Of a stretch of DNA of 64,000 bases, positions 30,123 through 48,511 are shown piece by piece (the first letter of the stretch is position 1; each line of letters opens with the position of its first letter). The position numbers were made by a program, and so were the translations under genes. The stretch is taken from IMG/VR virus record IMGVR_UViG_3300046665_000548, positions 372,001 through 436,000 of that record; one strand, written 5' to 3'. The stretch is from a virus. The notes below the pieces were generated by a model, which saw only the letters and a list, made by a program, of their open reading frames with translations, searched no databases and was not told the DNA's origin.

Positions 30123-30145
30123 GAGACTTCCGGTTAAGGGCCTAC

Positions 30146-31378
30146 TTATTTATTGCTGTCCAGTATGGCCCAAAATTCAGGAAACACAGCGGCGTAACTT
30201 TCCTTTCGGTATTTGTCATGCCGATCTACGGTCTGGAGAAACGAGTCTAGGAGATTTTTTCCTGGGGCGCGCAGCAGGCTAATAATGCCGTCAAGCGGCT
30301 CGAACAAAATCGAACACTCGTCCACGCTCATTCCAGAAAGCTTTACGGCAATCGCTTCTTTGACTGGTTGTGGTAGGTTCATGGCGGTCATGTTGTCTGG
30401 ATTGTAGAGCATGTTTACCCAAACCCGCACGTTGAGATCACGAAAATACTGGACGTACTCAGGCAGGTAAAAAATGTTCAAGCTCGATACGGTGAGACAC
30501 ACATGGACATCCTTCGGCCCCATGGTTTCCAGGAAACGCTTCATGTTTTGCTCAACTAGCGGCCACTTAGCCGGATATCTCTGGTATTCGAACTGTTCTC
30601 CTGTGCCATCGATAGAGAGCATGATGTCTACGCGCTTGAAATGCGGGAATAGGTTTTCGATGGCGTCTTCCGGATAGATCGTTCCGTTCGTGTTGTAGTG
30701 AACGGTCTGGTTCTTCGACCATCCGTTATCAACCGCGTGTCGTAGAAGCTCAAAATGACGTTGAATGAGAAACGGCTCTCCGCCGTAAATCTCAAAGTGC
30801 TCAATATGCGGAAGCCATTCTTCAAGATCAGTCCAAAATCGCGGATTGTGCTCGTGCCAATTCATGAGCATCTTGCGTTCAAGCGGGAAACTAGCCGTGG
30901 ACAAGTTCTTCGCCGCATTGGTGATCACGTCGCTGCCATAGATGTCGATGGTCTCTTTGATCCATTTCGAGGAAGAGCCAACCGAACAGATACGGCACTT
31001 GAGGTTGCAGAGATTTCCAAGCTTCAGGTCCAGGAAGATCGGCTGAAGCTCGTCCTCTGGGACACTCAGTACGGCTTCCACTTTATTCCACCAACGCTTG
31101 TTCTCTCGAATGCGCTTGGATGTCTTACCAGCGGCTTCTTCGCGCCAGCATGACGAACATGCGGGGTGCTTAGTTCCTGCTACGAGCGCGCCTCGGAGAT
31201 CACGAACTGACTTGGACTTCCATACGTCCGTCATGCTGTCGCGTGCCAGAGTGAACTTGGTGCCGTCTTCCTTCTCGAAGAAATGCGTGCTCATACAGCA
31301 GGGAGCCACAAACCCGTCAGCGCGAGCTTCCAGATGGATGAAAGGCAGGATGCAAAAGGTATCGCTTATAGTAGACAT
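30146..31378 (-). CDS. Radical SAM protein, twitch/SPASM type (copy A)
   Basis: This 410-residue enzyme belongs to class I of the eight in this island. The [4Fe-4S] motif is CNLKCRIC (Cys 124, 128, 131), and GGEP for SAM binding is in HFEIYGGEPFLI. Before it lie Cys9, Cys27-Cys28 and Cys74/Cys77 (CSSCW), a set that may hold an auxiliary cluster. The end has the family motif AAVFPEFWAIL. It is the last of five tandem class I genes and overlaps copy B by 13 bases. Radical SAM enzymes use an organic radical to cut C-H bonds; the reaction and substrate are unknown. Confidence 0.9.
   Translation of the reverse strand: MSTISDTFCILPFIHLEARADGFVAPCCMSTHFFEKEDGTKFTLARDSMTDVWKSKSVRDLRGALVAGTKHPACSSCWREEAAGKTSKRIRENKRWWNKVEAVLSVPEDELQPIFLDLKLGNLCNLKCRICSVGSSSKWIKETIDIYGSDVITNAAKNLSTASFPLERKMLMNWHEHNPRFWTDLEEWLPHIEHFEIYGGEPFLIQRHFELLRHAVDNGWSKNQTVHYNTNGTIYPEDAIENLFPHFKRVDIMLSIDGTGEQFEYQRYPAKWPLVEQNMKRFLETMGPKDVHVCLTVSSLNIFYLPEYVQYFRDLNVRVWVNMLYNPDNMTAMNLPQPVKEAIAVKLSGMSVDECSILFEPLDGIISLLRAPGKNLLDSFLQTVDRHDKYRKESYAAVFPEFWAILDSNK
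30147..30154 (-). promoter_or_regulatory. Late promoter -10 element (AATAAATA)
   Basis: This octamer is one mismatch from the late consensus and is built into the last codons and stop of radical SAM copy A (AAT AAA TAA). It lies 24 bases before the SGNH hydrolase ATG and could give that gene and the carbamoyltransferase separate late transcription. Confidence 0.5.
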
Positions 31379-32571
31379 GCAAGCTCCGGGAAGGTCGTGG
31401 CAAAATCTTCTCCACGAAGATCGTCCATTTGCTTAAGTTTGTACCGAAGACGACCCAGCCATTGCGGCTCATGGGGCTGGCGAAGGCTAGTGATCGCGCC
31501 CTCCCAGCGACTGAGGGCCATTTGGTTTCCACCAACACTCTTCAGCCAATCCATGTGATCTTCGTATAGCTCGATAGCCTTTTCGCGAAGATTGTCGGGA
31601 GCCACGGATGGACGGAAATATTCAGGATATGTTAGAGGATTGATGTTCCATTCACTCGGCTCTACTAGTCCTTCCTCTACCCACGTGCGGTGGAAGGCTG
31701 GCATGTCGAGAAAATTCAGCACGCTCAAAGTAAAGTTAACGTAGAAATTAACGTTCGGGCATACGCGCATCATCTCTTTGCGATTGGCAACGATCTGATC
31801 CCACTTCATACCTTTGCGAATGTATTCGCCCTTTTCGCCCATGCCGTCCAGTGATGCCCCGACAACCACATACTTGAACTGATTCCAAAGTTCGAACACC
31901 TTGAGGTCTTTGAAGGCGGTCTGCGACATATTAGTATTGTAGCTGAGGTGCACGTCGAAGCGACCTTGCGCGGCGAGCATTTTTAAAATGCGGTAGTGCT
32001 CTTCCATCATCAATGGTTCGCCCCCCGCAAAGTAAATTTTCTCCACGGTCGGCAGAAAGCTTTCAATTTCTCCCCAAAGTTTTTCCGGATCATCCGGCCG
32101 CAGGATACGCTTGCTCGGCTTGCGACCTGACGCCTTTGCGTCATCGAACCAATTAGAGGAAAGCTCTGGTCCGCAGGTGCGGCATCGAAAATTACAGATA
32201 TTACTGAAACGGATATCCAAGTACGGCATGTTGATGCGATCAACGGTGCCATCCTCTTTCGTTTCGGAAACGATCTCCAGGTGATGCTTGAACGATTCGT
32301 TGTGGTCAATGCGCAGAGAACGGAAACCAGATTGCTCCATCTCGTAGCAGCGCGAGCATTCATCGGACGCCTTGTCCGCCAGCATGTTCAAACGAATCTG
32401 CTTCAGCTTCGGACTGTTCCAAACGTCTGCGAGCCCAGTTTCTTTGCCGATCTTTGCTATCGGCTTCTGTGAGTCCTGAACGCAACACAAATACGTGTTG
32501 CCGTTTGGCCAAGCATGCAGATGAGTCCATGGGACGAGACAGAAATGTTTGTTAGATAGTATATCAGTCAT
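31366..32571 (-). CDS. Radical SAM protein, twitch/SPASM type (copy B)
   Basis: This 401-residue class I enzyme has the cluster motif CNFRCRTC (Cys 126, 130, 133), the GGEPLM SAM-binding motif (KIYFAGGEPLMM) and the N-terminal set Cys11, Cys29-30, Cys72/Cys75. It ends ATTFPELACLL. The N-terminal pattern CLVPWTHLHAWPNG is shared with copies A, C and D. It overlaps copy C by 8 bases. Family knowledge suggests peptide or protein modification for SPASM/twitch members, but no precursor peptide of the classical kind is seen beside it. Confidence 0.9.
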   Translation of the reverse strand: MTDILSNKHFCLVPWTHLHAWPNGNTYLCCVQDSQKPIAKIGKETGLADVWNSPKLKQIRLNMLADKASDECSRCYEMEQSGFRSLRIDHNESFKHHLEIVSETKEDGTVDRINMPYLDIRFSNICNFRCRTCGPELSSNWFDDAKASGRKPSKRILRPDDPEKLWGEIESFLPTVEKIYFAGGEPLMMEEHYRILKMLAAQGRFDVHLSYNTNMSQTAFKDLKVFELWNQFKYVVVGASLDGMGEKGEYIRKGMKWDQIVANRKEMMRVCPNVNFYVNFTLSVLNFLDMPAFHRTWVEEGLVEPSEWNINPLTYPEYFRPSVAPDNLREKAIELYEDHMDWLKSVGGNQMALSRWEGAITSLRQPHEPQWLGRLRYKLKQMDDLRGEDFATTFPELACLL

Positions 32572-33781
32572 TTAGACCCTTCAGAAGAGCATACAATTCT
32601 GGGAAAACATCTTCTGATTTCTCGCTGCGATTGGCATCGAGAGCGCCGTTGTATGTGATGCCACGGCGTAGAAGGTCGGGATTACTGGGGTTATTTAGTA
32701 GCTGGCTTTTGATGCTATTGAAATCATAATCCGCCAGCACTGGCTCCATCTTGGCCAACGCAGCCATTTTGATGCGCTCGGGTAAAATCCATGGAGCCAA
32801 ATATTCTGGATCGTAGATATAGTTGAAATGCACGTGGAGGCCACGACCATGCTTCATATACTGGTAATACTCGGGGACTGTGAGTAGGTTTTGCCATCCA
32901 ATGGTCTGATTGACCGACGTGTTGATCCACGTTTCTTTCTGAAGTCGATCTAGGTTGCGTTCAACGTCCGCCCATTTCGTGCCATATCTGAGAAGCGCGT
33001 TTCGTTCTCCGAGATCGTCAATCGAGCAGGAGATACGAACTTCCTTGAACGAACGCCACACCTCGAAGGCGCTCTCCGGAAGGTTGGTCATGTTGATGTT
33101 GTACCAGAGCACGACATCCTTGGCCTTGCCGGAGGCGCGCAGCCGCTCCAGGAACTCCCAGTGTTTCTTGATCAGCGTCGGCTCGCCACCGTTGATGTAG
33201 ATCAGTTCCAGGTGGGTGGAGTTCTCAAACAGATCATCCCAGAACAGGTCTTTCTCCGGCCAATCGAAACCGGTCAAGCCTTGGTATGATCGAACGAAAT
33301 CAAACTTTTGTTCGAGTTGCGCGTACTCGACCACCCACTTAGACGAAGAGGCGGGATTGCAGGAGCGACATTTGACGTTGCAGATATTACCAAGTCGTAA
33401 TTCCACAAAACGCAGTTTGGGTGCAATCCGTCCGTCGTTGTCCGTCTCTAGCGCAGCAACCTCGCGAGTTAGGTCCGCAAAATTTTCATTCTCGGCAAGC
33501 CTTTTAGATTTCACGCCATTCTCTTCCTCACGGAAGCAACGCATGCAAGCGAGCGGCTTTCGGCCGTCAAGCATCTGCTTTCGAACCTGCCGAAAGTAGT
33601 CGCTATTCATGATCTCATCTGTAGAGTTTTGGTTCAGGTTTAACCACTCAGTGCTTCCATCTTCACGAAAATTGCGAGATCGGTTGACGCCTTTGTCGTG
33701 ATTGCTCACGCAGCACAACGTGACGCCGCCGTGGGGATGACTGGCTAGATGCAACCATGGGAGAACGCAAAACGTGCTCAT
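32564..33781 (-). CDS. Radical SAM protein, twitch/SPASM type (copy C)
   Basis: The open frame starts further upstream at 33961, but the family start MSTFCVLPWLHLASHPHGG is at 33781 and overlaps the copy D stop by four bases (ATGA), so I use it (405 residues). The cluster motif is CNVKCRSC (Cys 134, 138, 141). The SAM motif is YINGGEPTLI, and the N-terminal cysteines are Cys5, Cys23-24, Cys79/Cys82. It ends EDVFPELYALL. It is the third of five tandem class I genes. Confidence 0.9.
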   Translation of the reverse strand: MSTFCVLPWLHLASHPHGGVTLCCVSNHDKGVNRSRNFREDGSTEWLNLNQNSTDEIMNSDYFRQVRKQMLDGRKPLACMRCFREEENGVKSKRLAENENFADLTREVAALETDNDGRIAPKLRFVELRLGNICNVKCRSCNPASSSKWVVEYAQLEQKFDFVRSYQGLTGFDWPEKDLFWDDLFENSTHLELIYINGGEPTLIKKHWEFLERLRASGKAKDVVLWYNINMTNLPESAFEVWRSFKEVRISCSIDDLGERNALLRYGTKWADVERNLDRLQKETWINTSVNQTIGWQNLLTVPEYYQYMKHGRGLHVHFNYIYDPEYLAPWILPERIKMAALAKMEPVLADYDFNSIKSQLLNNPSNPDLLRRGITYNGALDANRSEKSEDVFPELYALLKGLND

Positions 33782-34977
33782 ACCCAATGATCTTCTATTA
33801 GTTTGTACATCTCCGGAAATGTAGCCGCAAAATCCTCTTTGCGATACGCATCGCCCTCTTTGATCTCTTTTACGGCTCGCTTCATGAGATATTCGTCGTA
33901 CTCGGAATTCTCCATATGGTTCATCAGGGGCGTGACCGCAGCTAGCGTTTGCTCTCTCCAAACCTTTGACCGGAGATGATTACAGATCACATCCTTTGCT
34001 GCTCTCGGTAGAATACTCACTTGATACCACGGCGGAAAGTAAACAAGATTGTGCCATACGGTGTCTTCGATACCGAGTGTATCAAGATACTCATGCAGTT
34101 CGTGGATATAGTAAATGTTGTGCAGCGACACGGTATGCGTGATGCCGAAGTCGAACTTCATGCGGTCGTCTAATGAGTTTCGGAGGTTCGTAAAATACTC
34201 CAAATTGGATGCAGCAAGGGACCAGTTGCCTGGATGTCGAAGGTACTCAAACCGCTTGCCGACACCATCAACGCTTAGGCCAATCGCCATCCCTGCGAAA
34301 TTATCGATAATGCGCTCGATCAGCTTTTCGGGGCGTTGAGTGCAATTTGAAGACATCCGGATGCGAACGTTCTTCGCGTATCCCTTGTCGATGAACTCAT
34401 CTAGTACAGTGGCGAACTCCTTCATGAAGAAGGGCTCGCCTCCCATGAACTCCAAAGATCGTACATGCGGCATCCACTCGTCGCGGGTGTTCCAGAAGGC
34501 GCTATCATTCGAGATTATCTTCTGGCTACCGATTGGATCGAAACTGATATTGCGATCAATTGCTTCTTTAATCCACTTAGACGATGCGTGTGGATGGCAT
34601 GTTCGGCACTTTAGATTGCAAGTATTATTCAGTATTAGCTGCCAGTCATCCGGAAGCCCAGGCTCGGCGTCATAGTCGATTACTCGTCCATGATCGTCAG
34701 CCATTTTATTGTAGATCATGCGCTTGGAAGTTTTACCGTTTGCTTCATCCGACCAGCAAATGTTGCACGTCTGTGGCTTCTCACCGTCGCGAAACTGTTT
34801 TCGAAGCTTCTTCATGTATGGGCCATGAAAGATTTCGTTCACAGAACTGGTCTGGAGTTTCAACGGAACGCCGTCATCTCCGGTAATTTTCTCAGACGCG
34901 ATACAGCAAGCCCGCAATATGCCATTCGCTTCATTAGCCAAATGCGTCCAAGGCAGAGAACAATAAGTTTTAGTCAT
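33778..34977 (-). CDS. Radical SAM protein, twitch/SPASM type (copy D)
   Basis: This is a 399-residue class I enzyme starting MTKTYCSLPWTHLANEANG. I chose the ATG at 34977 because it shares one base with the copy E stop (TGATG) and aligns with the other copies; an ATG five codons upstream is possible. The cluster motif is CNLKCRTC (Cys 120, 124, 127), the SAM motif LEFMGGEPFFM, and the N-terminal set Cys6, Cys24-25, Cys71/Cys74 (CNICW). It ends FAATFPEMYKLI. Of the five it is closest to copy A in plan. Confidence 0.9.
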   Translation of the reverse strand: MTKTYCSLPWTHLANEANGILRACCIASEKITGDDGVPLKLQTSSVNEIFHGPYMKKLRKQFRDGEKPQTCNICWSDEANGKTSKRMIYNKMADDHGRVIDYDAEPGLPDDWQLILNNTCNLKCRTCHPHASSKWIKEAIDRNISFDPIGSQKIISNDSAFWNTRDEWMPHVRSLEFMGGEPFFMKEFATVLDEFIDKGYAKNVRIRMSSNCTQRPEKLIERIIDNFAGMAIGLSVDGVGKRFEYLRHPGNWSLAASNLEYFTNLRNSLDDRMKFDFGITHTVSLHNIYYIHELHEYLDTLGIEDTVWHNLVYFPPWYQVSILPRAAKDVICNHLRSKVWREQTLAAVTPLMNHMENSEYDEYLMKRAVKEIKEGDAYRKEDFAATFPEMYKLIEDHWV

Positions 34978-36359
34978 CAGTTTTTCATCCACCAGCGGAG
35001 CACATCCGGATAGGGTTCAAATATTTGTTCGATTGTAATGCGACCGTTCTGGCCATCGCCGCGATGCCGGGCGAGACGTTGCAGAAACTCGCGCCCCTTG
35101 TAAAACGCTTCTTCGTATCGATCTGGGAACTGTTCTTCGAACGTTGGGCGAGTGCGCATGTCTTGTAGTGTCGTCACCAAGGTCTGAGTACGGTGGTTGA
35201 CCTTTGGCTCCATGTAACAGAGCAGATCATCAAGAACGTCATCCAGCACTTTACGTGGTAGCGCGAAAGGCGAAACTAGCTTCTCCGGATCGAACGCGTA
35301 AACGATCTTCGTCAAGATATCGACATCTAGTTCGTTGGCTAGATCGAAGAACTCTTTCATGTGGAGGAGGCCCGGAAGGGTCAGCGTCAGATCAAGCTTC
35401 ATGCGATCACGCAACTCTGGGACCTCAAGTCCGGCCTTAAAGTTGACGAGCCATTCGTCCCAGTTCAACCCAGTGCGGATGTACTCACCGACGCGGCCCG
35501 TCGCGTCAATCGAGCAGCACATTAGGTAATTCTTATAGTGCGGAAGGATGTCCTTAAACAGGTTCACGCCCTTCCAATCGATCCTGGACAGGTTCGTGTT
35601 GTAGCGCGCGTAGACGTTCTTGGAGTGGCCGCTTTCTACCATGTGGTGCATAAGCTCCCAGTGCTTTTCCCACATCAGCGGTTCGCCCCCGACCCAGTAA
35701 AGCTCTTCCACGATCCCCTGCTTGCACGCATCCGCGAGTTCCACCTCGACCGTTCCGGTCTGGAACTCTTCAATCTGAGCCTTCATCTCCGGCACCATCC
35801 AGGGGTCATAGATCGGAGACCACTCGTCATGCTTGCGCTTCTCGGCTTCCCAAGAAGACGATAGTTGATGACCGCACATACGGCACTTAAAGTTACAGAG
35901 ATTGTTGATCCGATAGTCGAAGCTGATGACCGGCAAGCTGAGATGTCCGGTGTCATCTGTGGCCGCAAACACCTCATCTACCTTTTCGTGAAACAGGTGA
36001 TTAAACCAGTTACGGTAGACATCAATGTTCAGTATTCGGTCGTTGCAGACCATACACTCAGGAATAACCTCGCCCGCCATATGAGCAAGTCGAACCTTCT
36101 TCAAGGCATCGCTATTCCAATGTTCTTCAAGCGTCTTCGGAGCATACCCGGTTGATGTGTTTTCGCCAGACCCGCTGTCGATATACTGTCGGATGTAGCT
36201 TGCTTCTTCTCTCGACGCACAGCAAAGCCGCCGTTCGCTCTGAGGCGAGATATAAGTGTGGGTAAACGGAGCCATGCAGAACGTTTTGTTCGGAGAATCC
36301 TCCTTGAAACGACCACTGGTTTCAAAGAGGGGTCGGACGCGCTTCGGCTGATGAATCAT
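34977..36359 (-). CDS. Radical SAM protein, twitch/SPASM type (copy E)
   Basis: This 460-residue protein is the longest class I copy and the first of the tandem five. An extra N-terminal stretch of about 20 residues precedes KTFCMAPFTHTYISP. The cluster motif is CNFKCRMC (Cys 155, 159, 162), and the SAM motif is YWVGGEPLMW. The N-terminal cysteines are Cys28, Cys46-47 and Cys102/Cys105. A C-terminal extension follows EQFPDRYEEAF. No late-promoter element was found directly upstream, so its transcription start is uncertain. Confidence 0.9.
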   Translation of the reverse strand: MIHQPKRVRPLFETSGRFKEDSPNKTFCMAPFTHTYISPQSERRLCCASREEASYIRQYIDSGSGENTSTGYAPKTLEEHWNSDALKKVRLAHMAGEVIPECMVCNDRILNIDVYRNWFNHLFHEKVDEVFAATDDTGHLSLPVISFDYRINNLCNFKCRMCGHQLSSSWEAEKRKHDEWSPIYDPWMVPEMKAQIEEFQTGTVEVELADACKQGIVEELYWVGGEPLMWEKHWELMHHMVESGHSKNVYARYNTNLSRIDWKGVNLFKDILPHYKNYLMCCSIDATGRVGEYIRTGLNWDEWLVNFKAGLEVPELRDRMKLDLTLTLPGLLHMKEFFDLANELDVDILTKIVYAFDPEKLVSPFALPRKVLDDVLDDLLCYMEPKVNHRTQTLVTTLQDMRTRPTFEEQFPDRYEEAFYKGREFLQRLARHRGDGQNGRITIEQIFEPYPDVLRWWMKN

Positions 36360-36445
36360 GAACTAGAGTTTACGGAAATCCCTTGACGAAAACCATTTGT
36401 TTGGTAACGATCAGGTATAGCGAATCACCTACGAAAAGCGACGCA

Positions 36446-36700
36446 ATGCCCGGTGAACCCCACAATACTAATGCACCGGAACAAGATTGGCAGCGCCCAC
36501 GTAACTGTCATTGCCTAACCACACAGCAACGCGCTTGCTGTTACGAGCAATGCGACCCTGAAGACGTGGGTCGCATCATGCGGAAGGGCGAAGGATTGAT
36601 GGTCTTCGGATATTCGCTCGTGGCTGTAGTCGCCATCACTATCGTGATGTTCGCAGTTAAATGTACGTTTGGATCAGGGTGCTTTGGGCAGTATCAATAG
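36446..36700 (+). CDS. Cys-rich single-pass membrane protein
   Basis: This 84-residue plus-strand gene lies between two minus-strand radical SAM groups. It has a Cys-rich N-terminal part (CHCLTTQQRACCYEQC) and a membrane helix near residues 55-73 (YSLVAVVAITIVMFAVKC), with two more cysteines at the end. I chose the ATG at 36446; an upstream TTG at 36383 overlaps a possible promoter (TTGACG). It is opposite in strand to everything around it, so it may be an independent early gene. Function unknown. Confidence 0.5.
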   Translation: MPGEPHNTNAPEQDWQRPRNCHCLTTQQRACCYEQCDPEDVGRIMRKGEGLMVFGYSLVAVVAITIVMFAVKCTFGSGCFGQYQ

Positions 36701-36783
36701 ATGAACGGATCGCGCTTGCGTAGTTTACGCAACTTGTTCTTCAATTTGATCCAGTCGATGAAGCGTTGAAAGAGTGTAATCAT
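36694..36783 (-). CDS. Basic microprotein ending DPFIY, 29 residues
   Basis: This 29-residue product (MITLFQRFIDWIKLKNKLRK, then LRKRDPFIY) is an amphipathic basic helix. The same layout, ending in DPFIY, recurs in T4-like phages as I remember them. The ATG at 36783 follows a CTAAATA late-promoter-like element by 5 bases with no ribosome site. It overlaps the plus-strand membrane gene by 7 bases at the 3' ends and lies 15 bases after radical SAM copy F. Function unknown. Confidence 0.6.
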   Translation of the reverse strand: MITLFQRFIDWIKLKNKLRKLRKRDPFIY

Positions 36784-36788
36784 ACGAC

Positions 36789-36795
36789 TATTTAG
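36789..36795 (-). promoter_or_regulatory. Late promoter-like element (CTAAATA)
   Basis: The element ends 5 bases before the ATG at 36783. It lies inside the 12-mer CCTAAATAGTCG that is repeated exactly before the subtilase fusion gene at 24594. The spacing predicts a leaderless transcript. Confidence 0.45.
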
Positions 36796-36798
36796 GCG

Positions 36799-38199
36799 TT
36801 AGATTACAGACCCGCTGATCAATTCCTGGCGAAAACCTAGATTGGTCGTCGGGATAGTATTGAGCCAATCCCTCATGGAAGGGAACACGTCGATACTCTT
36901 ACCTCGTCGTACGTCATACTGTGCGTGGAAGCTCTTAAAATCCTGTTGGAGCTTGCCCATTTCGTCCGCACCTGGATGAGGTGTCTTAACCGCGTCGAGA
37001 TAGTCTGCCAGCCGCTGGATATTCTCGATCTCGAAAGACGATACGAGAGGATTGTCCTTAAGCTGGGCGCAGAGCGTCACTAAAGTGTCACGACGTTCCG
37101 CCAGTACGGCTGGCGGAAGGACGAGCGGGCTCATGAAACTCGGAAAACGCACGATATTGGCGCTCCACCGTACGCGTTCGCTGCCAAACTGCCGCTTCCA
37201 CTCAATCATAACGTCCAGGAACTCAGGCAAACTGAACAGGGAGAGATTGTTGATGGTCATCATCATGGTTAGCTGCTTCACGTTGCCATGGGTCATGACC
37301 TTTTCGACGTTGGCCTTCCAGGTGTCGAAAATCATCCCGTCTCGGATGTACTCTGCTTGAGCGCCCATGGCTTCGTTGGACGAGAAGATTTGCAGGTCCG
37401 GGACGGCATGCGATTTTTCAATCAGCCGGTCGATCAGTTCTGGCTTCCCGCCCAGGTTGGTATTGATCGCAAATTGAACCCCATTGGTGCCGTTTTCCTC
37501 AAAGAAATCGAACAGCTTCCAAACGTCCACCGACATCAAAGGCTCACCGCCAGTGATGCGAAGCTGCTTCAGTGTTTTGGATAGTTCTGGCCACCACTTC
37601 CAGAATGCAGCGATATACGGGTTTCCTTCATTGCGTTTTCCGTACGGCTCGGCCCATGCTCCGTTGTGCTGGAACGCACCAGCGCCGTCACTAACGAGGT
37701 TCTGGTACGCGCCATGCGTGTTGATATCCTTGGCCCATGTAGTGGAGAACCCAGCGTTACAATACGAACATGCGAAGTTGCAGGTACGATTGAATGCGAT
37801 CTCAAGCGTCTCCAGATGCACGTCCGCATCCCATGGCATTTTGGCGATTTGGTCGATTGATGTTTGATCGTATCGGGAAGATTTGAAAGCTCGATCAGAA
37901 ACGTTGTTCCGATTAATCCCCTCAATTCGCCAGCAGTAGTCGCACTCAGAAGGCTGATGCCCGTCGAGCATCAGCTTGCGCATCTTTTTCTTGTGCACGG
38001 TGTTGTGAAGCGCTGACGGATTGACGGCGATCTCGTCTAGCTGAATCTTGTGTGCAGGCGGTAGGTGGCATGACGCGGTTGCGCCATGGCCGAGCCAGAT
38101 GGTTGAGTCGAGCCATTTTGTTGCACAGAACGACGGCGATACCGGATCGAGCACGCGAGCCTGATAGTCCTGCCAGGATTCGTCAGCCTTCTTTGTCAT
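36799..38199 (-). CDS. Radical SAM protein, class II (copy F)
   Basis: This 466-residue enzyme belongs to the second class in this island. Its start is set by an ATGA overlap with the small gene upstream (38199). The cluster motif is CNFACSYC (Cys 140, 144, 147) and the SAM motif is LRITGGEPLMS. The N-terminal set differs from class I: Cys25 (FCATKW), Cys44 with His45 (SCHLPPAH), then Cys86/Cys89 (CDYCW). The segment HNTVHKKKMRKLMLDG is nearly identical in copies G and H. It ends IDVFPSMRDWL. The small motif protein gene directly upstream is a possible partner or substrate. Confidence 0.9.
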   Translation of the reverse strand: MTKKADESWQDYQARVLDPVSPSFCATKWLDSTIWLGHGATASCHLPPAHKIQLDEIAVNPSALHNTVHKKKMRKLMLDGHQPSECDYCWRIEGINRNNVSDRAFKSSRYDQTSIDQIAKMPWDADVHLETLEIAFNRTCNFACSYCNAGFSTTWAKDINTHGAYQNLVSDGAGAFQHNGAWAEPYGKRNEGNPYIAAFWKWWPELSKTLKQLRITGGEPLMSVDVWKLFDFFEENGTNGVQFAINTNLGGKPELIDRLIEKSHAVPDLQIFSSNEAMGAQAEYIRDGMIFDTWKANVEKVMTHGNVKQLTMMMTINNLSLFSLPEFLDVMIEWKRQFGSERVRWSANIVRFPSFMSPLVLPPAVLAERRDTLVTLCAQLKDNPLVSSFEIENIQRLADYLDAVKTPHPGADEMGKLQQDFKSFHAQYDVRRGKSIDVFPSMRDWLNTIPTTNLGFRQELISGSVI

Positions 38200-38480
38200 T
38201 GCTGAGCACCATGCCATCTCAGCTTAAACAGTATCGCGTGCTTCGGATTGTCGAACATATACATCACGTTTTCCGGTAGTCCCCCGATATACCCCTCATT
38301 CCAATACGTCCAATTGTCAGTATACATTGAACCGACGTGATCCATACACCAAAAGAGCCGCGCTTCGGCGGTTGGGCCTGTCGGGAGAGTGATGATATGC
38401 GGAAACCGCATCATCTCTGCGCGAACCTCTTCCAGCCTCTTTTGGGCTTGTTCCTCTGGCGTAAGATCGTCAATCATCAT
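38196..38480 (-). CDS. Small motif protein paired with radical SAM copy F
   Basis: This 94-residue protein ends VMYMFDNPKHAILFKLRW plus HGAQQ, the clearest form of the shared C-terminal signature. It starts within the last codons of copy G (38480 or 38477) and its stop overlaps the ATG of copy F, so it is translationally locked to both. The first 35 residues are helical and charged, followed by an aromatic-rich part. It is one of three small genes placed immediately upstream of each class II radical SAM gene, which suggests a functional pair. Confidence 0.8.
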   Translation of the reverse strand: MMIDDLTPEEQAQKRLEEVRAEMMRFPHIITLPTGPTAEARLFWCMDHVGSMYTDNWTYWNEGYIGGLPENVMYMFDNPKHAILFKLRWHGAQQ

Positions 38481-39915
38481 TACCCATGACTGAGTCGAAC
38501 CAACCGTCAATGTCCTCTTGGGGTTCGGCTTCCGCAGACTCGCCACGCAGCCACGAACCAAGCTCGGGTGGGAACGTCGCGTAGATGTCCTTTCCACGTC
38601 GCTTGTCATACTGCTCGTAGAAGTTCTTAAAATCTGCAACCAGCCGTTCCATCGGAGCCGGGTCGGCATGTGGCTCATCCGCGTTGCGCAGATAGTTGAT
38701 CAAGCGCTCGGTGTGTTCCTTCTCGTGGTCCTGAAACAGCGGTCGGTTTGTTTTGCTGCACAGTTCACCGGCCGCCAACGTCTTGCGCAGCCAAGCCTCA
38801 AGCTTGTCAGCGATGGATTGCCGGATAGCAAGCGGCAGCACGAGAGGGCTTTGGAACGTCGGCCAACGCAGGATATTCATGGTGATGGCTGGAAAGTTAT
38901 GGTGATAACTGCGCTTCATTTCCATCACGTCATCCAAGAACTCAGTGATCGAGAACAGGCACAGGCTATTGATCGTCATCATACAGTGCAGGCTCTTAAC
39001 GTTGCCATGCGTTGCGAGATGATGAATATTCGCCTTCCATTGCTTGTAGTCCATTCCGTCACGGATGTACTCGGCTTGTGCACCGAATGCTTCGCACGAC
39101 GTGTAGATGTCGAGGTTATCCACGGCATGGCTCTTCGTAACCAGTCGATCAATGAACTCTTGTTTCGCGCCCAAATTTGAATTGATCGCGAAATGCATTT
39201 TCGTGCCTGGGTTCTTCTCGAACCAGTCAAATAGCCGCCAAACATCGACGCTCATCAACGGCTCGCCGCCAGTGATGCGAATCTGCTGGAGCGTCTGAGT
39301 CAATTCAGGCCACCACTTCCAGAACGCCTCGATATACGGATTTGGCTGAGCGCGCCCGAAAGGCGCTGCGCTAGGATGGGTGTGCGTGTAGTGCTGGCGC
39401 TTATCGGATGATAGCCCGGTGTACGGCCCGTCCGTCTTGATGTCTTTCACCCACGTGGTGGAAAATGACGGATTGCAGTACGAACAAGCAAAGTTGCACG
39501 TCCTGTCGAAAGCAATTTCGAGGGTCTTTAGCGATGCATCATCATCTGGGTCAGCCGCTGCCATGGCTGCGATCTCTTTGTCTGTAGAGATAAGAGTCTT
39601 CCAAACACGGTCCGACACCACCTCAGGACCAAGGTCTTCAAACTTCCAGCAATATTCGCACTCGCTAGGACGCTCGCCTTCGAGCATCAGCTTACGCATC
39701 TTCTTCTTGTGCCGCGTGTTATGAATGGCACTTGGATTGTGCTGGATTTCTTCGACCTCGATCTGATGCGATGGCGGGTGATGACACGAAGCAGTTTGGC
39801 CACCGGCAAGCCAAATAGTGGCGTTGTTCCACTTAGCGGCGCAGAACGACTTAGATACGGGATCGATTACCCGAGCCTTGTAGTCGAGATAGCTTTCGAT
39901 GTTATTCTTAGGCAT
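38470..39915 (-). CDS. Radical SAM protein, class II (copy G)
   Basis: This 481-residue enzyme is closely related to copy F. The cluster motif is CNFACSYC (Cys 140, 144, 147), the SAM motif IRITGGEPLMS, the N-terminal set Cys25, Cys44-His45 (SCHHPPSH) and Cys86/Cys89 (CEYCW). The shared segment is HNTRHKKKMRKLMLEG, and the end motif is YATFPPELGSWL, followed by an acidic tail of about 25 residues. Its ATG shares one base with the stop of the small gene upstream (TAATG), and a second small gene begins within its 3' end. Confidence 0.9.
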   Translation of the reverse strand: MPKNNIESYLDYKARVIDPVSKSFCAAKWNNATIWLAGGQTASCHHPPSHQIEVEEIQHNPSAIHNTRHKKKMRKLMLEGERPSECEYCWKFEDLGPEVVSDRVWKTLISTDKEIAAMAAADPDDDASLKTLEIAFDRTCNFACSYCNPSFSTTWVKDIKTDGPYTGLSSDKRQHYTHTHPSAAPFGRAQPNPYIEAFWKWWPELTQTLQQIRITGGEPLMSVDVWRLFDWFEKNPGTKMHFAINSNLGAKQEFIDRLVTKSHAVDNLDIYTSCEAFGAQAEYIRDGMDYKQWKANIHHLATHGNVKSLHCMMTINSLCLFSITEFLDDVMEMKRSYHHNFPAITMNILRWPTFQSPLVLPLAIRQSIADKLEAWLRKTLAAGELCSKTNRPLFQDHEKEHTERLINYLRNADEPHADPAPMERLVADFKNFYEQYDKRRGKDIYATFPPELGSWLRGESAEAEPQEDIDGWFDSVMGNDD

Positions 39916-40127
39916 TAAATTTGGTCACTCCAGAACATCTTGTATAGCACGCGGTCTTTCGGATCGGCAAAATGAACGTAATAGTTCCCTACCCCATGTC
40001 CGAAACTAAACGCGCCGTTCGTCTGCTCAAATACCCATTCTGCCGCATCGAGAAAGTGCGTGTTCCATGTACCGTGCCGCCAAGGGTGAGGCATCAGTTC
40101 GCATTCGTACGAAAATATCTTCATCAT
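39915..40127 (-). CDS. Small motif protein paired with radical SAM copy G
   Basis: This 70-residue protein starts MMKIFSYECELMPHP and ends YYVHFADPKDRVLYKMFW plus SDQI, matching the shared signature. I chose the ATG at 40127; an in-frame ATG near 40202 would add a Cys-rich piece (MKCTPCMEKIV), which cannot be excluded. Its stop shares a base with the start of copy G. Function unknown. Confidence 0.7.
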   Translation of the reverse strand: MMKIFSYECELMPHPWRHGTWNTHFLDAAEWVFEQTNGAFSFGHGVGNYYVHFADPKDRVLYKMFWSDQI

Positions 40128-40216
40128 TGTTCGGCAGTGACATTTTGCCGTAGCTGAAGTTATGCTCCGTACGATTTTCTCCATACATGGAGTGCACTTC
40201 ATGTCGAGAGGAAAAC

Positions 40217-41620
40217 CTATTGGGCTGCTGTTCGACATAGTTCCCAAAAGTCTTCCATCTCTGGGAAGCTCTCCAAGAATTTCGTACCTCGACGGCGATC
40301 ATGTTCAGTAAAGAAGCGAAAGAAATCGGCGCGATCACGCTTCAGCTTCTCTGGCGGAAGCTGATCACCTGCCCGCATCCATTCGAGATCGCGTTCAAGC
40401 TTGCTGATCTCGTAATCCTTCACACCTCGCAAGAACGTGTCGGACGTTTCGATCTTCGTTTTGAGGTATTCGATATCATCGGCCAGGATGTCTCGATAGC
40501 GCTGCGGAAGAATCTGGATTGACTGCCACGCAGGCGTACTCAACAGGGGAGGATCGAACCAGATCAATTGGCGATCATCATTGAACTCCTGCCGCATCTG
40601 AATGATCTGATCCAACAATGGTCGCAGCGAAGTGATCGACATAACGTTCATCGTGATGATGTACGAGATAGATCGACGCGCCGGTTTTTCGAGATACTTG
40701 CGTGAGTTCTCCAGCATGTAGTCGAAGTTCATGCCGTGACGAATGTACTCGGCCTTCTTGCCGTACGCGTCTACGCTCACGAACGTCATCAAATGCTCAA
40801 CTGCGCACTGATCCGTTATCGTGTTGGCCTGTTCGATAAACTTAGCGAACAGGCGAGGATCGGGACAAAAATTTGAGGTGAGACCAAGCTGAAGGTCCGG
40901 CTTTGGATTCTTGATGATGTAATCGAACACCTTGTAGGTGTTCTTGTCCATCAACGGCTCCCCTCCGGTCATGCGGAAATGCTTCAGGCCCTTGTACATT
41001 TCAGGCCACCATTTCCAGAAAGCGTCCACATAAGGATTGGCATCCTTGTGGGGGATCGGCATAAGCCCTTTCTGCCTTAAGTGCTCGATGCTATTGTGAG
41101 GCAAGGTGGTAGGGTACGGACCAAAGCGCTCAACCTCCTCGCGCCACGTGGTAGACAGATGGGGGCTGCAATAGCTGCATTTGAAATTGCAGGCAGAGTT
41201 GAAATTGACCTCGACATATCGCGGCGACACATCCCAATCCCAAGGATGCTCCATGATCTCATCGAACGTTTCCATGGCCCATTGTTCGCCAGACCGATAG
41301 TGGCGGTCGCTGAGATGGTCTCCAGGCTGATCTTCGATATTCCAGCAATACTGACACTCGGACGGCCGGTCGCCCTCCAGCATCATCTTGCGCATGCGCT
41401 TCTTATGCTGCGTGTTATGGAGCGCGGTCGGGTTAACGGCGAGTTCATCAAGCGGCACCTTGTGCACGCGAGGATGATAACAGCTTTGCGTCAGGCCCGC
41501 AGTGAGATTTATCGATACCTGATGCCACTTTGCGATGCACATACCCGGCCCGACTGAATCCAGCTTGGGCTTCACCTGTTCTGCGTTCGTCAGGTAGACG
41601 CTTTTGATCTTATCGTTCAT
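40217..41620 (-). CDS. Radical SAM protein, class II (copy H)
   Basis: This 467-residue enzyme is the most divergent class II copy and the first to be transcribed. The cluster motif is CNFKCSYC (Cys 144, 148, 151), the SAM motif FRMTGGEPLMD, the N-terminal set Cys28 (CIAKW), Cys47 (SCYHPRVH) and Cys89/Cys92 (CQYCW). The segment HNTQHKKRMRKMMLEG is shared with F and G, and the end has FLESFPEMEDFW. Its ATG overlaps the upstream small motif gene by four bases. Confidence 0.9.
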   Translation of the reverse strand: MNDKIKSVYLTNAEQVKPKLDSVGPGMCIAKWHQVSINLTAGLTQSCYHPRVHKVPLDELAVNPTALHNTQHKKRMRKMMLEGDRPSECQYCWNIEDQPGDHLSDRHYRSGEQWAMETFDEIMEHPWDWDVSPRYVEVNFNSACNFKCSYCSPHLSTTWREEVERFGPYPTTLPHNSIEHLRQKGLMPIPHKDANPYVDAFWKWWPEMYKGLKHFRMTGGEPLMDKNTYKVFDYIIKNPKPDLQLGLTSNFCPDPRLFAKFIEQANTITDQCAVEHLMTFVSVDAYGKKAEYIRHGMNFDYMLENSRKYLEKPARRSISYIITMNVMSITSLRPLLDQIIQMRQEFNDDRQLIWFDPPLLSTPAWQSIQILPQRYRDILADDIEYLKTKIETSDTFLRGVKDYEISKLERDLEWMRAGDQLPPEKLKRDRADFFRFFTEHDRRRGTKFLESFPEMEDFWELCRTAAQ

Positions 41621-41808
41621 GCGAATCTCAGCTTAAAAATCACAGCGTCTCTTTCAGACGAAAACCAATACGTCCACGTGGCAGTGCCATCGTGATGATA
41701 GTGCGCGAAATCATAGGTGACGTTGTTTGATCGATAATCGCGAACCCACCCACTCATCCTATTGATTCGATCAAAAGTCACTTTATTGCGGAACGAAACC
41801 TTAATCAT
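41617..41808 (-). CDS. Small motif protein (tandem copy 2), paired with copy H
   Basis: This 63-residue protein ends YWFSSERDAVIFKLRFA. It is a close paralogue of the next gene, with the same length and identical last eleven residues (ERDAVIFKLRF A). It overlaps copy H and its own paralogue by ATGA on both sides. The conserved part is an aspartate-rich turn, a hydrophobic strand and a basic end, consistent with a single compact beta domain. Confidence 0.75.
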   Translation of the reverse strand: MIKVSFRNKVTFDRINRMSGWVRDYRSNNVTYDFAHYHHDGTATWTYWFSSERDAVIFKLRFA

Positions 41809-41996
41809 GCGAATCTCAGCTTGAAGATAACGGCGTCGCGTTCGGAATGAAAATAATACGAGAAAGTGCGCGTACCGTCATCATTCAGGTTTCTAAAACG
41901 GGGTTCTACTTTATCTGTTCGGTAGAATTCTATCCAATTGAGCATCGTATAGATATCCAACCCTGTCATCTTTTTCCTGATCTTAACCTCAGTCAT
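41805..41996 (-). CDS. Small motif protein (tandem copy 1)
   Basis: This 63-residue protein starts MTEVKIRKKMTGLDI and ends YYFHSERDAVIFKLRFA. I chose the ATG at 41996, which overlaps the glycosyltransferase stop by 8 bases; the longer frame adds non-coding-looking residues. It forms a recent tandem pair with the 41617 gene, while the N-terminal halves have diverged. Confidence 0.75.
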   Translation of the reverse strand: MTEVKIRKKMTGLDIYTMLNWIEFYRTDKVEPRFRNLNDDGTRTFSYYFHSERDAVIFKLRFA

Positions 41997-42912
41997 TTCG
42001 CAAGTGAAAGCTCTCACGGAAGAACTCCGACTCATCGGCGCTCAGGATCGGGAGGGCTATCTTTGTCTGTTTGGACACCTCTGCCCCGTACTGGGCCAAC
42101 AGTTCACCCATACGGCCCTGCGGAGGCCCCTGGCGGCTTCCTTCCTTAATGGCGGACTCGCCGCCCAGCATGTCCACAACGCCTCCCCAGAGGCTCTGGA
42201 ACCAGTCGTAATCACGGATCGGGGTGTAATCCCAGTCTAGGTCACACATGTGCGCCCAACCCATACGAGTTCCGAGCATGGCAAACATGCCATTATCGAA
42301 GTCTGCACCGACGCACGCCCAAATACGGACGTTGCGCAGGTTCACCGGGTGAAGCTGCTTCTTCATCCGCTCAGGATCGACGCGCCCTCCCCGATCTAGG
42401 GTCAGCTTGACCGCCTCGCGATAACCGACGCGGAAAGCCTGATAGGCAGAACCGTTGACCCAAACCTCGGAGAACGTCTTGTGGACCTGCTTGTAATCGT
42501 CTTCCCAACAGAAATCGACAGCCTTGCGGGGGTCATCGGCATTTTCGTGTGAATTCATGTTTAGCACGAAGTTTTTTGACCAAAGCTTTAGGCCGCCGTT
42601 GCCGTACATAAGACCATTGATCATGTTTACCCCATTCCAAGAGAAACACCTATTCGGGGTCGCTTTGGGATCGAACTCTACCATTTCATCGAAGAATTCG
42701 GGGCGGACAATATTGTCTGCGTCAACAGTTACGAACCAATCGGTCTCGGACTGCTCGGCACAGGCCCTATGGGCGGCATCAAAGCCTTTAACGCCATGCA
42801 CGCGCTTGGCCCAAGGAGCCTTTTCGCATAGATCGGCGTAATGCTTGTCCGCGTTGGGCTCATCGTAGCTTAAAAAGAAGCTGTCGAATTCAGATACATG
42901 AAAGGATGGCAT
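41989..42912 (-). CDS. Glycosyltransferase-like protein (GT-A)
   Basis: This 307-residue protein has a GT-A-type start: SFFLSYDEPNADKHYADLCE, RVHGVKGFDAAHRACAE, then the DxD motif in FVTVDADN (residues 64-66), which binds a metal and nucleotide sugar. A Trp-rich C-terminal part follows. The type is common in large T4-like phages. It is the first gene of the radical SAM class II unit and overlaps the small motif gene, so sugar transfer and radical chemistry may act on one target. The acceptor is unknown. Confidence 0.8.
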   Translation of the reverse strand: MPSFHVSEFDSFFLSYDEPNADKHYADLCEKAPWAKRVHGVKGFDAAHRACAEQSETDWFVTVDADNIVRPEFFDEMVEFDPKATPNRCFSWNGVNMINGLMYGNGGLKLWSKNFVLNMNSHENADDPRKAVDFCWEDDYKQVHKTFSEVWVNGSAYQAFRVGYREAVKLTLDRGGRVDPERMKKQLHPVNLRNVRIWACVGADFDNGMFAMLGTRMGWAHMCDLDWDYTPIRDYDWFQSLWGGVVDMLGGESAIKEGSRQGPPQGRMGELLAQYGAEVSKQTKIALPILSADESEFFRESFHLRND

Positions 42913-42947: not shown

Positions 42948-44408
42948 TTAACGCACTAACCTGCAAGATTTGAATATTCGTTTTGTCCAAAGACCGAAAT
43001 CTAACTTCACATCGGTGCGAACCTGCACCGCTACCCGGCCATCTCGCATTAGCGGTTCAACTGGGACTTGGAAGCGTTCGTAAAACTCGCTGAGATCGCC
43101 GCGTCTGGCCATTACGAATGGTAGATATTCGAAGCCAAAGATTATACCCTCTTGGGCTTCGTGCTCATATTCCACCTCAAACACGATCTCATTTGTGTCT
43201 TCCTTTGGCGTGGCGGTCAATCCGACGCGATCAGGCACCTCAAACGTCAGAGGCACCTCATACCAATTTTCGTCAATAATTTCTTTACCGACGACGAAGC
43301 GATCTTTCATTACCATGTTTTCGAAGACCAACGGCAACATGATGTCGAATCGATCCATGATCAGATGATCCGGAATATCGATGTCAAGATATCCAGTCTG
43401 TACTAGATGGTAGAACGATATACGGGCGGTGTGCAGCAAGTAACCTGGATTGTCGCGGATCGTAAACAATACGGGCATATCGTTCAGGTCTCGGTCGTAT
43501 ACTGCTCCATCTTTCTTGTCGAATTCGAATTGGATTTTGCGCTCATCCCTATAGACGGCAACGACCAGACCCGGCGCGTATTCGGTCTCCCAAGGAACAC
43601 GCACAACGTCGCAAAAATGACCTTCAGGAAGAGGAAGCAGGTTCGAGACAAAGAAGCTCGATTGACGTTGCACGCCATCGAAAATATCCGGAATGTACAC
43701 GTCATACGGTTGAGACGGATCAAGACCCAACGGAAAGATCAAGTCTCCATTCCGAAGGTCGGACATCTTGACCTTCGCGCCCTGATAGATCGTCGCCATG
43801 TCCTCAGGTGCGGTGAATAGTATCGTGAACTCTTCGACCTCAGACGCTAGTTCGACGCCTGGGCTGAGTAACAATCGAAGCATGAATTTGCGCTCATCGA
43901 CGCCGATGCGCAGCAATAGAATTGCCGAACCCTGCGGGCGCTCGTCTGTTATCCTTGCCCAGCCATCGCGTTGAATGAGTTTAACGAGACGATTTTTTGA
44001 ATTACGCGGAAGCAATTTCGGATTCACGCGATCCGTCGTCGTGTAACCAATGATCCAATCGTCTGTTGGAAGCTCGCCAGAACTAAGCTGTTCAGCAATA
44101 TCTCGCGGGATGGTGGCGCAATCGTACTGACGTGCTAATTCGTCAGAGGGATGGAAACAAACCGCTCGAATAGTACCTACTCTGTCGTAATAGACTAAGC
44201 CATTCAACTCTTGCTTTGCTTCTGGAGTGTCGTTCCAGATACTTCGCGTGTATAGACCTTCGTACTCTGGGAGCACGCGCGGCGAAATTGCAATGACGCC
44301 GCCGTCTTCGTCCTCATAAATGTAGACGAAAGTCTGCTCCTCAGCGGCGGAGGCAGCAATGTCAGCTTCGATTTCGTCAAACCATGAATCAAGCTCTTTT
44401 TCTGCCAT
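42948..44408 (-). CDS. Hypothetical protein, 486 residues
   Basis: This beta-rich acidic protein begins MAEKELDSWFDEIEADIAAS. It contains repeated segments of the type VFENMVMKDRFVVGKEIIDENWYEV that look like stacked beta domains. It has no signal or membrane segment. It lies between glycosyltransferase genes, with its ATG sharing one base with the upstream stop (TGATG). A structural protein carrying the modification, or a scaffold for the enzymes, are both possible. I do not recognise the family. Confidence 0.7.
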   Translation of the reverse strand: MAEKELDSWFDEIEADIAASAAEEQTFVYIYEDEDGGVIAISPRVLPEYEGLYTRSIWNDTPEAKQELNGLVYYDRVGTIRAVCFHPSDELARQYDCATIPRDIAEQLSSGELPTDDWIIGYTTTDRVNPKLLPRNSKNRLVKLIQRDGWARITDERPQGSAILLLRIGVDERKFMLRLLLSPGVELASEVEEFTILFTAPEDMATIYQGAKVKMSDLRNGDLIFPLGLDPSQPYDVYIPDIFDGVQRQSSFFVSNLLPLPEGHFCDVVRVPWETEYAPGLVVAVYRDERKIQFEFDKKDGAVYDRDLNDMPVLFTIRDNPGYLLHTARISFYHLVQTGYLDIDIPDHLIMDRFDIMLPLVFENMVMKDRFVVGKEIIDENWYEVPLTFEVPDRVGLTATPKEDTNEIVFEVEYEHEAQEGIIFGFEYLPFVMARRGDLSEFYERFQVPVEPLMRDGRVAVQVRTDVKLDFGLWTKRIFKSCRLVR

Positions 44409-45280
44409 CAGATGCCAAGCGCCTTCTCGAAGGTAGTGATCATTTCGTTAGTCAAGAAACTCTTCCAGTGATAATGCACGGGTAAGTGCTGGCGATAAAG
44501 CCCTAGCTTGAGTTGAAGATCGCTTGTGAGTGAAGGGCGCACATGTTTGATCCACTCTTCTGAAGCGATCCCTTCAGGCCAGTTTTGAACTTGTGAACGC
44601 ATGTGCACGAAGCGAGGTGCTGGTAGAGTAGAGGTGCATTCTCCGGTAATATCAAGGAGCTTCATGGCGAGACCAAACACTACGTCGGTCGAGACAATTT
44701 TTGGACGCGTATCCGGCTCCAGATACTCGTGAAAGAACGTCTGCCAATTGTGAAATATGATCTCGCTTAGATTGAAGAACTCTTCTGCCATCTCGCTGTA
44801 GCGGAAGAATGTGAACGCGCTGTACACGTTAGGCAGGTTGTTTGCCGTAAACGTCTTTCGATAATAATCGCTCGTTACGAGTTCTCCGCGATAGGTTTCG
44901 ACCTGCGTGCAAGCAAAAATATCGTTCTCGAACAAAGACCACCAGTTCGACACGTCGCTGAGAAACAACATGTCGGCATCCAGCTTCACCGTCTCCTTAT
45001 ACGGAGTTACGTGATACGCCTTCCATTCATTCTCAAGCTTCCAGGTGCTATCGCGTGCTTCGTCCACCCAAGGAATATCGATAACGTGGTCAAACACGGC
45101 TCGGTACTTGTCAGGCACAGTCATTCCCGGCGTAATCGCAACTGAGAGATGTGACGCTTCTTCTGGCTGGGTAGCCTTGAGGCTTAGAGCCAAGGCGTAA
45201 GCCATGCGCAAGTAATCCATTTCGCCGCCATTCTGGGCAAACGTGAGATATCCGCGTTCTCGCTTGAAATCTCGGGTCAC
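44408..45280 (-). CDS. Glycosyltransferase-like protein (tandem copy 2)
   Basis: This 290-residue protein starts with GTG at 45280, overlapping the upstream stop by four bases (GTGA), because the related upstream gene begins the same way (RGYLTFAQNG against RGFLMFAHNN). It has the pattern DYLRMAYALALSLK, then TPYKETVKLDADMLFLSD with DxD at residues 101-103, as in GT-A glycosyltransferases of the GT8-like kind. It forms a tandem paralogous pair with the next gene. The sugar and acceptor are unknown. Confidence 0.8.
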   Translation of the reverse strand: MTRDFKRERGYLTFAQNGGEMDYLRMAYALALSLKATQPEEASHLSVAITPGMTVPDKYRAVFDHVIDIPWVDEARDSTWKLENEWKAYHVTPYKETVKLDADMLFLSDVSNWWSLFENDIFACTQVETYRGELVTSDYYRKTFTANNLPNVYSAFTFFRYSEMAEEFFNLSEIIFHNWQTFFHEYLEPDTRPKIVSTDVVFGLAMKLLDITGECTSTLPAPRFVHMRSQVQNWPEGIASEEWIKHVRPSLTSDLQLKLGLYRQHLPVHYHWKSFLTNEMITTFEKALGI

Positions 45281-46167
45281 TGATACACCTCTAATAGCTT
45301 GTCCGCGTGGCGAATAATTGAAAACTTGTTCATGCAATGCACGTTGATGTTTTTGACCTTCGTGAGCCTGAACATCCAACGTTCTTTGGGATCATTTACG
45401 AAGAACAGCAATTCGTTCTTACCCAAAACGCCATACAGTTCGTCACAGTCGAAGCTGGAGAATATAGCGGGCGTTGGAAGCGCGGGTATTCCGTCGCGCT
45501 CGATGAAACCGTTCATCATGTGAATGGCAATAGAGAACGCGTAGTCATTTCTGAACATGCGGCCCTTGAAGCCATACACGAGTTGATAGAATTCGTAATT
45601 CTCTCTCACGGCGGTCACCAGATCGAAGAGAAGTTCCGCTGTTTCTGACTTGCGGAAATAAACGCAGGTTGCCCAATACATCGGAATCGTGAATGGGTCG
45701 AGAAAGCGTTCTTCCGTGCTTGGAAGCTGATGATCAAGCGTCCTTGCTTCTTTGTTGATCATGATAGGGTTGTTCGATCCCCATACGAGATCGAGCGTGG
45801 AATCCAGGACCAGATAGTCGCAATCGATCAACACGGTTTCTTCGTACGGAGTCAACTCATACGCGCTACGGCGACCGCCGTTATGCCATGGCACTGTATG
45901 TGTCGTGCTGAGAGTGTCATGGAAACGTCGCTCGGAAGTACCCTCATGGGCGTCCTTCCAAGACCTGACTACGATATGATCGAATGCCTTGTTGATTACT
46001 TCTTCGGTATGCGCCGCGTTAAGGTAATCAATCGTACCCTGGTCGGTAACCAGCGTAATATTGTTCTCTTTCAGATTGGCCTTGATCATTCGCGCGTTCA
46101 CGAGAGCGATCAGACCGTAATCGATCTTTTCGTTATTGTGCGCGAACATTAGAAAACCGCGTGACAT
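45277..46167 (-). CDS. Glycosyltransferase-like protein (tandem copy 1)
   Basis: This 296-residue protein has LTPYEETVLIDCDYLVLDS (DxD-type DCD at 115-117), matching its downstream paralogue. The first 20 residues (RGFLMFAHNNEKIDYGLIAL) are the shared nucleotide-binding start. Near residues 253-268 it carries LLFFVNDPKERWMFRL, which resembles the C-terminal signature of the small motif proteins, as if one had been fused here. Its ATG overlaps the upstream conserved gene by one base. Confidence 0.8.
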   Translation of the reverse strand: MSRGFLMFAHNNEKIDYGLIALVNARMIKANLKENNITLVTDQGTIDYLNAAHTEEVINKAFDHIVVRSWKDAHEGTSERRFHDTLSTTHTVPWHNGGRRSAYELTPYEETVLIDCDYLVLDSTLDLVWGSNNPIMINKEARTLDHQLPSTEERFLDPFTIPMYWATCVYFRKSETAELLFDLVTAVRENYEFYQLVYGFKGRMFRNDYAFSIAIHMMNGFIERDGIPALPTPAIFSSFDCDELYGVLGKNELLFFVNDPKERWMFRLTKVKNINVHCMNKFSIIRHADKLLEVYQ

Positions 46168-48427: not shown

Positions 48428-48473
48428 ATGAAAAGTCTCCTATAGCAATAGAGTCGCGTGGCGACGTTTGGTG

Positions 48474-48481: not shown

Positions 48482-48511
48482 TAACCGGCTTTAGACCAGT
48501 TTTTGCGATGA

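Follow-up and report, generated by a model that had tools for sequence, protein, structure and literature searches.

Eight Radical SAM Genes Form a Tandem Array in a Very Large T4-like Phage

The window analyzed here is a 64,000-nucleotide stretch of the virus record IMGVR_UViG_3300046665_000548 (bases 372001-436000 of 607,744 bp), and it contains eight open radical S-adenosylmethionine (SAM) reading frames, rS1 to rS8, at window positions 30146-41620, all on the minus strand. The original prediction, made from the sequence alone, had described two tandem groups of such genes on one strand, and this description held: all eight proteins are full-length members of the N_Twi_rSAM family (NF033640), scoring 289-405 bits against a curated cut-off of 170. 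These hidden Markov model scores exclude a chance resemblance. A CxxxCxxC cluster motif and a GGEP motif are present in each of the eight proteins, as predicted, and so are the N-terminal twitch cysteines. The C-terminal FP(E)-type end that had been claimed for all of them stood in part, i.e., an FP motif lies near the C-terminus in all eight but is not at the extreme end in rS5-rS8. A six-frame search revealed no internal stops, and all eight genes are intact. The SPASM Pfam match is N-terminal in rS1-rS5, with the match in rS5 below the cut-off. Pairwise identity among the copies is 18-36%, except for rS6 and rS7 (55%). The genome also encodes a ninth N_Twi gene elsewhere (135489-136610) and four other radical SAM genes. 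Membership of the array proteins in the viperin family (NF038283; at most 29.6 bits versus a cut-off of 180), the QueE/7-deazaguanine family (~17-22 bits versus 260), and the MoaA family was ruled out by the scores.

The genes fall into the groups rS8-7-6 and rS5-4-3-2-1, with a 439-bp gap between them. Gene calls were mechanical; the start of rS3 is more likely at 33781, which gives 405 amino acids (aa) and an ATGA overlap with rS4. Most neighbors in the array overlap by 1-31 bases, in agreement with the joined genes noted earlier, and extra small open reading frames (ORFs) lie between rS8, rS7, and rS6. In the direction of transcription, the order is C9, C7, C5, C2a, C2b, a 486-aa protein, C3, two small proteins, rS8, rS7, and rS6, followed after the gap by rS5-rS4-rS3-rS2-rS1 and then by an SGNH-like protein and a carbamoyltransferase. 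Neighbors throughout this island mostly overlap or abut.

A T4-type Gp23 capsid protein, a T4-type baseplate wedge protein, and T4-type late promoters are all present in the record, which identifies the virus as a very large T4-like phage. The 1101-aa wedge protein is nearest to those of Sinorhizobium phage Phosso and Agrobacterium phage Atu_ph07, then to those of RaK2-like phages. The late promoter hexamer TAAATA precedes 100 of 755 ORFs, versus ~7 expected. Between window positions 27401 and 49300, all six TAAATA sites are on the coding strand; they include hexamers at the starts of the island's transcription units (Table 1) and one inside rS3 (32697). As judged from these promoter motifs, the island is probably expressed late, as had been proposed. 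Right behind the promoter in the rS6-rS5 gap we noticed by eye a tiny 29-codon ORF, MITLFQRFIDWIKLKNKLRKLRKRDPFIY (36694-36783, minus strand).

Five Members Constitute an Ordered Core in Uncultured Relatives

We scanned uncultured viruses with rS2 and with an rS6-8 profile. The rS2 scan returned 21 loci, most of which, where the flank sufficed, carry 5-7 radical SAM genes in a similar order. The profile scan returned at least 537 confirmed relatives, of which 80 loci were kept with flanks limited to 10 kb; this sample was selected by rS8-type similarity, and the linkage figures drawn from it are therefore inflated.

A tree of 380 sequences separates rS8, rS7, rS5, rS1, and rS2 into clades of their own, to each of which a viral locus contributes about one member. 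The same picture emerges from a second tree, model-based and built from 72 sequences, with Shimodaira-Hasegawa-like approximate likelihood ratio test (SH-aLRT) values of 99-100 for groups 8, 7/6, 5, and 2, and 85 for group 1. Of the 80 loci, 25 show exactly the order 8-7-2-1-5, and adjacent pairs recur throughout the sample (8-7 57 times, 7-2 58 times, 2-1 43 times, and 1-5 40 times). Because five members belong to separate clades with about one representative per phage, the array is not one amplified gene, and the same clades taken together with the fixed order argue for successive, non-redundant steps. The motifs are retained across the whole set of homologs: the cluster motif is kept in 525 of 525 and GGEP in 520 of 525, and four N-terminal cysteines are at least 99% conserved.

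The genes ahead of the array are conserved too. C3 was found in 78 of the 80 sister loci, C2 in 77, C7 in 76, C9 in 75, C5 in 73, the SGNH-like C6 in 34, and a carbamoyltransferase in 32, and in almost every one of these loci the array follows C9-C7-C5-C2-C2-C3. This conserved linkage to putative glycosyltransferase, SGNH, and carbamoyltransferase genes, with distinct orthologs in a conserved order, supports the earlier suggestion of a dedicated multi-step pathway. Sister islands occasionally hold nucleotide-sugar and tailoring genes (DegT, GDP-mannose dehydratase, UDPG dehydrogenase, NeuB, cytidylyltransferase, and FkbM). In an independent scan with C3, radical SAM genes accompany C3 in 36 of the 52 loci whose downstream sequence was long enough; the other 16, which look like one related group, keep the fiber and glycosyltransferase genes and a second C3 but have no radical SAM gene. 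Neither C3 nor C7 was detected in any cultured phage searched.

Gene Content of the Island

The coordinates of the array, its neighbors, and its promoters are collected in Table 1. Putative glycosyltransferase genes (C2 and C3) stand in the same block as virion protein genes (C7 and C9). C2 was assigned to the glycosyltransferases by motif only, with no Pfam match. Profile searches of the Protein Data Bank (PDB) with C3 gave spurious matches only, and structure comparison was needed: an AlphaFold2 (AF2) model (pLDDT 93.7) matched GT-A enzymes in Foldseek, the best being a capsid glycosyltransferase of the Chlorella virus PBCV-1 (2p6w; E 6.9e-4). The SGNH-like protein of the window has relatives in C6/C17, SGNH-like genes that recur in other islands.

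The small proteins between C3 and rS8 belong to a family with a conserved tail like F..E.DALLFKLRWG, which has ~67 ORF matches across the genome and almost none in the sister-phage loci searched. We considered whether the small proteins between rS8, rS7, and rS6 are precursor peptides and rejected the idea because the family is genome-wide and not array-specific. Two large proteins were also noticed in the window: an 851-aa protein that follows baseplate-region genes (24594-27149) and looks by eye like a fusion of a subtilisin-type protease and an M23-like peptidase, and a giant 3670-aa protein (49287-60299) between the baseplate wedge and fiber genes.

Table 1. Features of the radical SAM island and associated genes (window positions unless marked as record positions)
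Feature	Position	Strand	Remarks
Small-protein family, other window members	13020-13238, 13676-13987, 38196-38678, 39915-40247		
NodU/TobZ-type O-carbamoyltransferase, 485 aa	27814..29271	-	PF16861 1.1e-53, PF02543 6.5e-50
SGNH/GDSL-like hydrolase or acyltransferase, 289 aa	29253..30122	-	weak: GDSL_LA_2490 E 7e-4
T4-type late promoter ATAAATA	30142..30157, hexamer 30152	-	30 nt before SGNH/carbamoyltransferase genes
rS1, N_Twi radical SAM, 410 aa	30146..31378	-	358.6 bits; core group 1; clade in 48 viral loci
rS2, N_Twi radical SAM, 401 aa	31366..32571	-	404.9 bits; core group 2; 51 viral loci
rS3, N_Twi radical SAM, 405 aa from internal ATG, accessory	32564..33781	-	341.6 bits; ortholog in bacterial locus L060
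rS4, N_Twi radical SAM, ~399 aa, accessory	33778..34977	-	319.1 bits; 3 other viral loci
rS5, N_Twi radical SAM, 460 aa	34977..36359	-	296.3 bits; core group 5; 47 viral loci
T4-type late promoter CTAAATA	36784..36799, hexamer 36794	-	gap before rS5-rS1
rS6, N_Twi radical SAM, 472 aa, rS7 paralog	36799..38217	-	288.8 bits
rS7, N_Twi radical SAM, 481 aa	38470..39915	-	321.6 bits; core group 7; 53 viral loci
rS8, N_Twi radical SAM, 467 aa	40217..41620	-	325.9 bits; core group 8; 55 viral loci; transcribed first in array
Small F..DA..FKLR protein	41617..41808	-	between C3 and rS8; genome-wide family
Small F..DA..FKLR protein	41805..42035	-	between C3 and rS8; genome-wide family
C3, GT-A glycosyltransferase-like, 307 aa	41989..42912	-	DxD motif; upstream of rS8
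486-aa protein	42948..44408	-	C4 position of other islands; no family match
C2b, GT8-like putative glycosyltransferase	44408..45379	-	LDADMLFL and C-terminal HxxxK pattern
C2a, GT8-like putative glycosyltransferase	45277..46167	-	same family as C2b
C5, small conserved protein, 127 aa	46167..46550	-	
C7, Thr/Ser/Gly-rich fiber-like structural protein	46586..47476	-	conserved in lineages with and without radical SAM genes
C9, tail-fiber/virion structural protein	47477..48427	-	phrog_14394 virion structural protein 6.8e-12; weaker tail fiber match
T4-type late promoter TATATAAATA	48469..48484, hexamer 48479	-	upstream of C9-to-rS6 block
Gp23 T4-type capsid protein	367054-368037 of record		just left of window; 2.5e-93
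A-type Fe-S carrier (PF01521)	441514-441819 of record		outside window; phage-encoded

Related Arrays in Bacteria and in Other Phages

A scan of bacterial genomes with an rS1-4 profile uncovered a seven-gene array in a Bacteriovoracaceae metagenome-assembled genome (MAG; locus L060, 6043-18039), orthologous to rS7 (twice), rS5, rS3, rS2, rS1, and rS8. It is flanked by a ribosomal protein L21 gene (Pfam) and an Lgt-like gene (by eye), and L060 has one further divergent radical SAM gene. For rS1, rS2, and rS5, the L060 copy is sister to the window protein (SH-aLRT 100, 100, and 96), which implies transfer of a block between phage and bacterium and suggests gene exchange with Bdellovibrionota, possibly the host group of the phage. 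The rS7 paralog rS6 is sister to a gene of another locus, L066 (SH-aLRT 98). Among the neighbors of bacterial N_Twi genes, in a tally made without a background control, SGNH genes were seen in 7 of 82 cases and PhyH in 4, together with GT2 and carbamoyltransferase families. An Elusimicrobia MAG (L219-L223) holds more than 50 full-length N_Twi copies in long tandem arrays, mostly fused behind tetratricopeptide (TPR) repeats.

The original prediction had regarded so many copies in one T4-like phage as unusual, and this did not hold up. The 24 records counted carry between 0 and 21 N_Twi genes, so that the nine of the window phage are middling, and phages with multiple radical SAM genes have already been published; eight in one phage is not exceptional. 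The Campylobacter phages CP220/CPt10 encode 11/12 radical SAM proteins (PMC2853527). Like the window phage they are T4-related, with five of these genes in one exchangeable module, but the text of that paper mentions neither a glycosyltransferase nor a carbamoyltransferase. The T4-like environmental phage TARA_ERS488813_N000010 (183 kb) has 12 radical SAM genes and shares with the window phage an A-type Fe-S carrier (Nishimura et al., PMC5332604). Aeromonas phage 332-Vera, compared by description only, has the same number as the window array, eight, in a structural cluster among baseplate and tail-fiber genes, although it is assigned to the Chimalliviridae and is not T4-like (PMC12390700). The host-recognition cluster of pelagimyophages combines radical SAM cassettes with glycosyltransferases in a hypervariable tail-fiber region; the part of that source consulted does not describe an ordered core or its enzymology (PMC7029224). 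Lastly, in the cultured Vibrio phage K566, several N_Twi genes are interleaved with GT8, GT4-like, and GT8 genes, but its proteins are only ~24% identical to those of the window and the stretch has no annotated tail-fiber gene. The family name NF033640, to which all array proteins belong, assigns no function; here its members form an ordered set of several enzymes within the late region of a phage. In the open-access literature searched, neither the ordered core nor a function for it is described, which is not proof of novelty.

What the Array May Modify

We suggest, at a confidence that falls just short of even, that the array is a late-expressed assembly line that tailors a glycan, most likely on the tail fibers. 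A glycan is favored by the glycosyltransferase linkage, the fold of C3, the interleaving in K566, the nucleotide-sugar genes, the lineage that lacks radical SAM genes, and BtrN, an aminocyclitol dehydrogenase that is the closest twitch sequence in the PDB (a single-sequence PDB search gave no match), when these are weighed against the clues to a protein substrate. The separate, ordered clades, the late promoters, the phage-encoded A-type Fe-S carrier, and the SGNH, GT2, and carbamoyltransferase neighbors of bacterial N_Twi genes also count in favor of the proposal. C2a, C2b, and C3 would transfer a short glycan to a carrier, most likely the Thr/Ser-rich fiber proteins C7/C9 transcribed with them. 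The N-twitch enzymes, each of which carries an auxiliary cluster besides its SAM cluster, would then act successively on the glycan or its precursors, and their 5'-deoxyadenosyl radical chemistry (oxidation, deoxygenation, epimerization, or C-C bond formation) might yield an unusual sugar. The carbamoyltransferase and the SGNH enzyme could cap or trim this sugar, and the resulting coat may adjust how the phage binds its receptor or protect the virion.

Five observations weigh against this proposal. The fold match of C3 is modest (TM ~0.3), C2 is without Pfam support, and neither a glycosyltransferase nor a fiber gene directly adjoins the L060 array. In addition, an AF2 model of rS2 (pLDDT 93.1) best matches the peptide-modifying SPASM enzymes CteB, anSME, and SuiB, with viperin, Tes, and BlsE close behind, and the elusimicrobial relatives carry TPR fusions. 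TPR repeats often bind proteins.

The last two observations, along with the fiber genes C7/C9 that share the block, would fit an array that modifies a fiber or other virion protein (cross-links, epimerization, or side-chain changes) in the manner of SPASM peptide maturases, with the glycosyltransferases acting separately and the TPR fusions hinting at protein docking. We consider this somewhat unlikely: no domain resembling a RiPP (ribosomally synthesized and post-translationally modified peptide) recognition element (RRE) is evident in the rS2 model, and the K566 and L060 arrays adjoin no identified fiber gene. The most conserved C7 motifs are common to phages that lack radical SAM genes, and a C7 motif clearly confined to phages that bear them was not found. 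A RiPP maturase as such was rejected, given that there is no evident RRE in the rS2 model and no array-specific precursor peptide.

Less probable still is a cassette that remodels the surface polysaccharide of the infected cell late, for superinfection exclusion or virion release, in which case the linkage to fiber genes would reflect shared regulation and host-range coevolution. Host-surface remodeling has been proposed for jumbo cyanophage sugar clusters (PMC7824862) and for pelagimyophage glycosyltransferases (PMC7029224), and bacterial homologs lie beside SGNH and carbamoyltransferase genes. Nevertheless, the island shares its late promoter class with structural genes, its adjacency to fiber genes is near-constant, and we noticed no membrane flippase or polymerase in it. 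Synthesis of a diffusible small molecule, or of a hypermodified nucleotide or DNA base, is improbable: the fold and sequence relatives include viperin and MoaA, and the bacterial array stands without glycosyltransferase genes, but base-modification partner genes were not found in the island, the promoters are of the late type, and linkage to glycosyltransferase and fiber genes is near-constant in phages. The idea that the copies are redundant or decaying, without any part in a pathway, might draw on the resemblance of rS6 to rS7 and the variable copy number among relatives, but it is scarcely credible given the intact cluster motifs and is largely refuted by the distinct orthologous clades in fixed order.

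A more specific version of the glycan proposal, which we hold only tentatively and think rather less likely than not to be right in full, is that the core 8-7-2-1-5 is a mobile five-enzyme pathway, present in many uncultured T4-like phages and in Bdellovibrionota, that builds a new C-H- or C-C-modified tail-fiber sugar. Since 2010, phages rich in radical SAM genes have been described without an assigned function. The fixed order, the one-per-phage orthologs, the linkage to fiber and glycosyltransferase genes, the lineage without radical SAM genes, and the cultured phage K566 now make the question testable. If the proposal is true, the large and unexplained enzyme investment of environmental T4-like phages would be radical chemistry on the virion surface.

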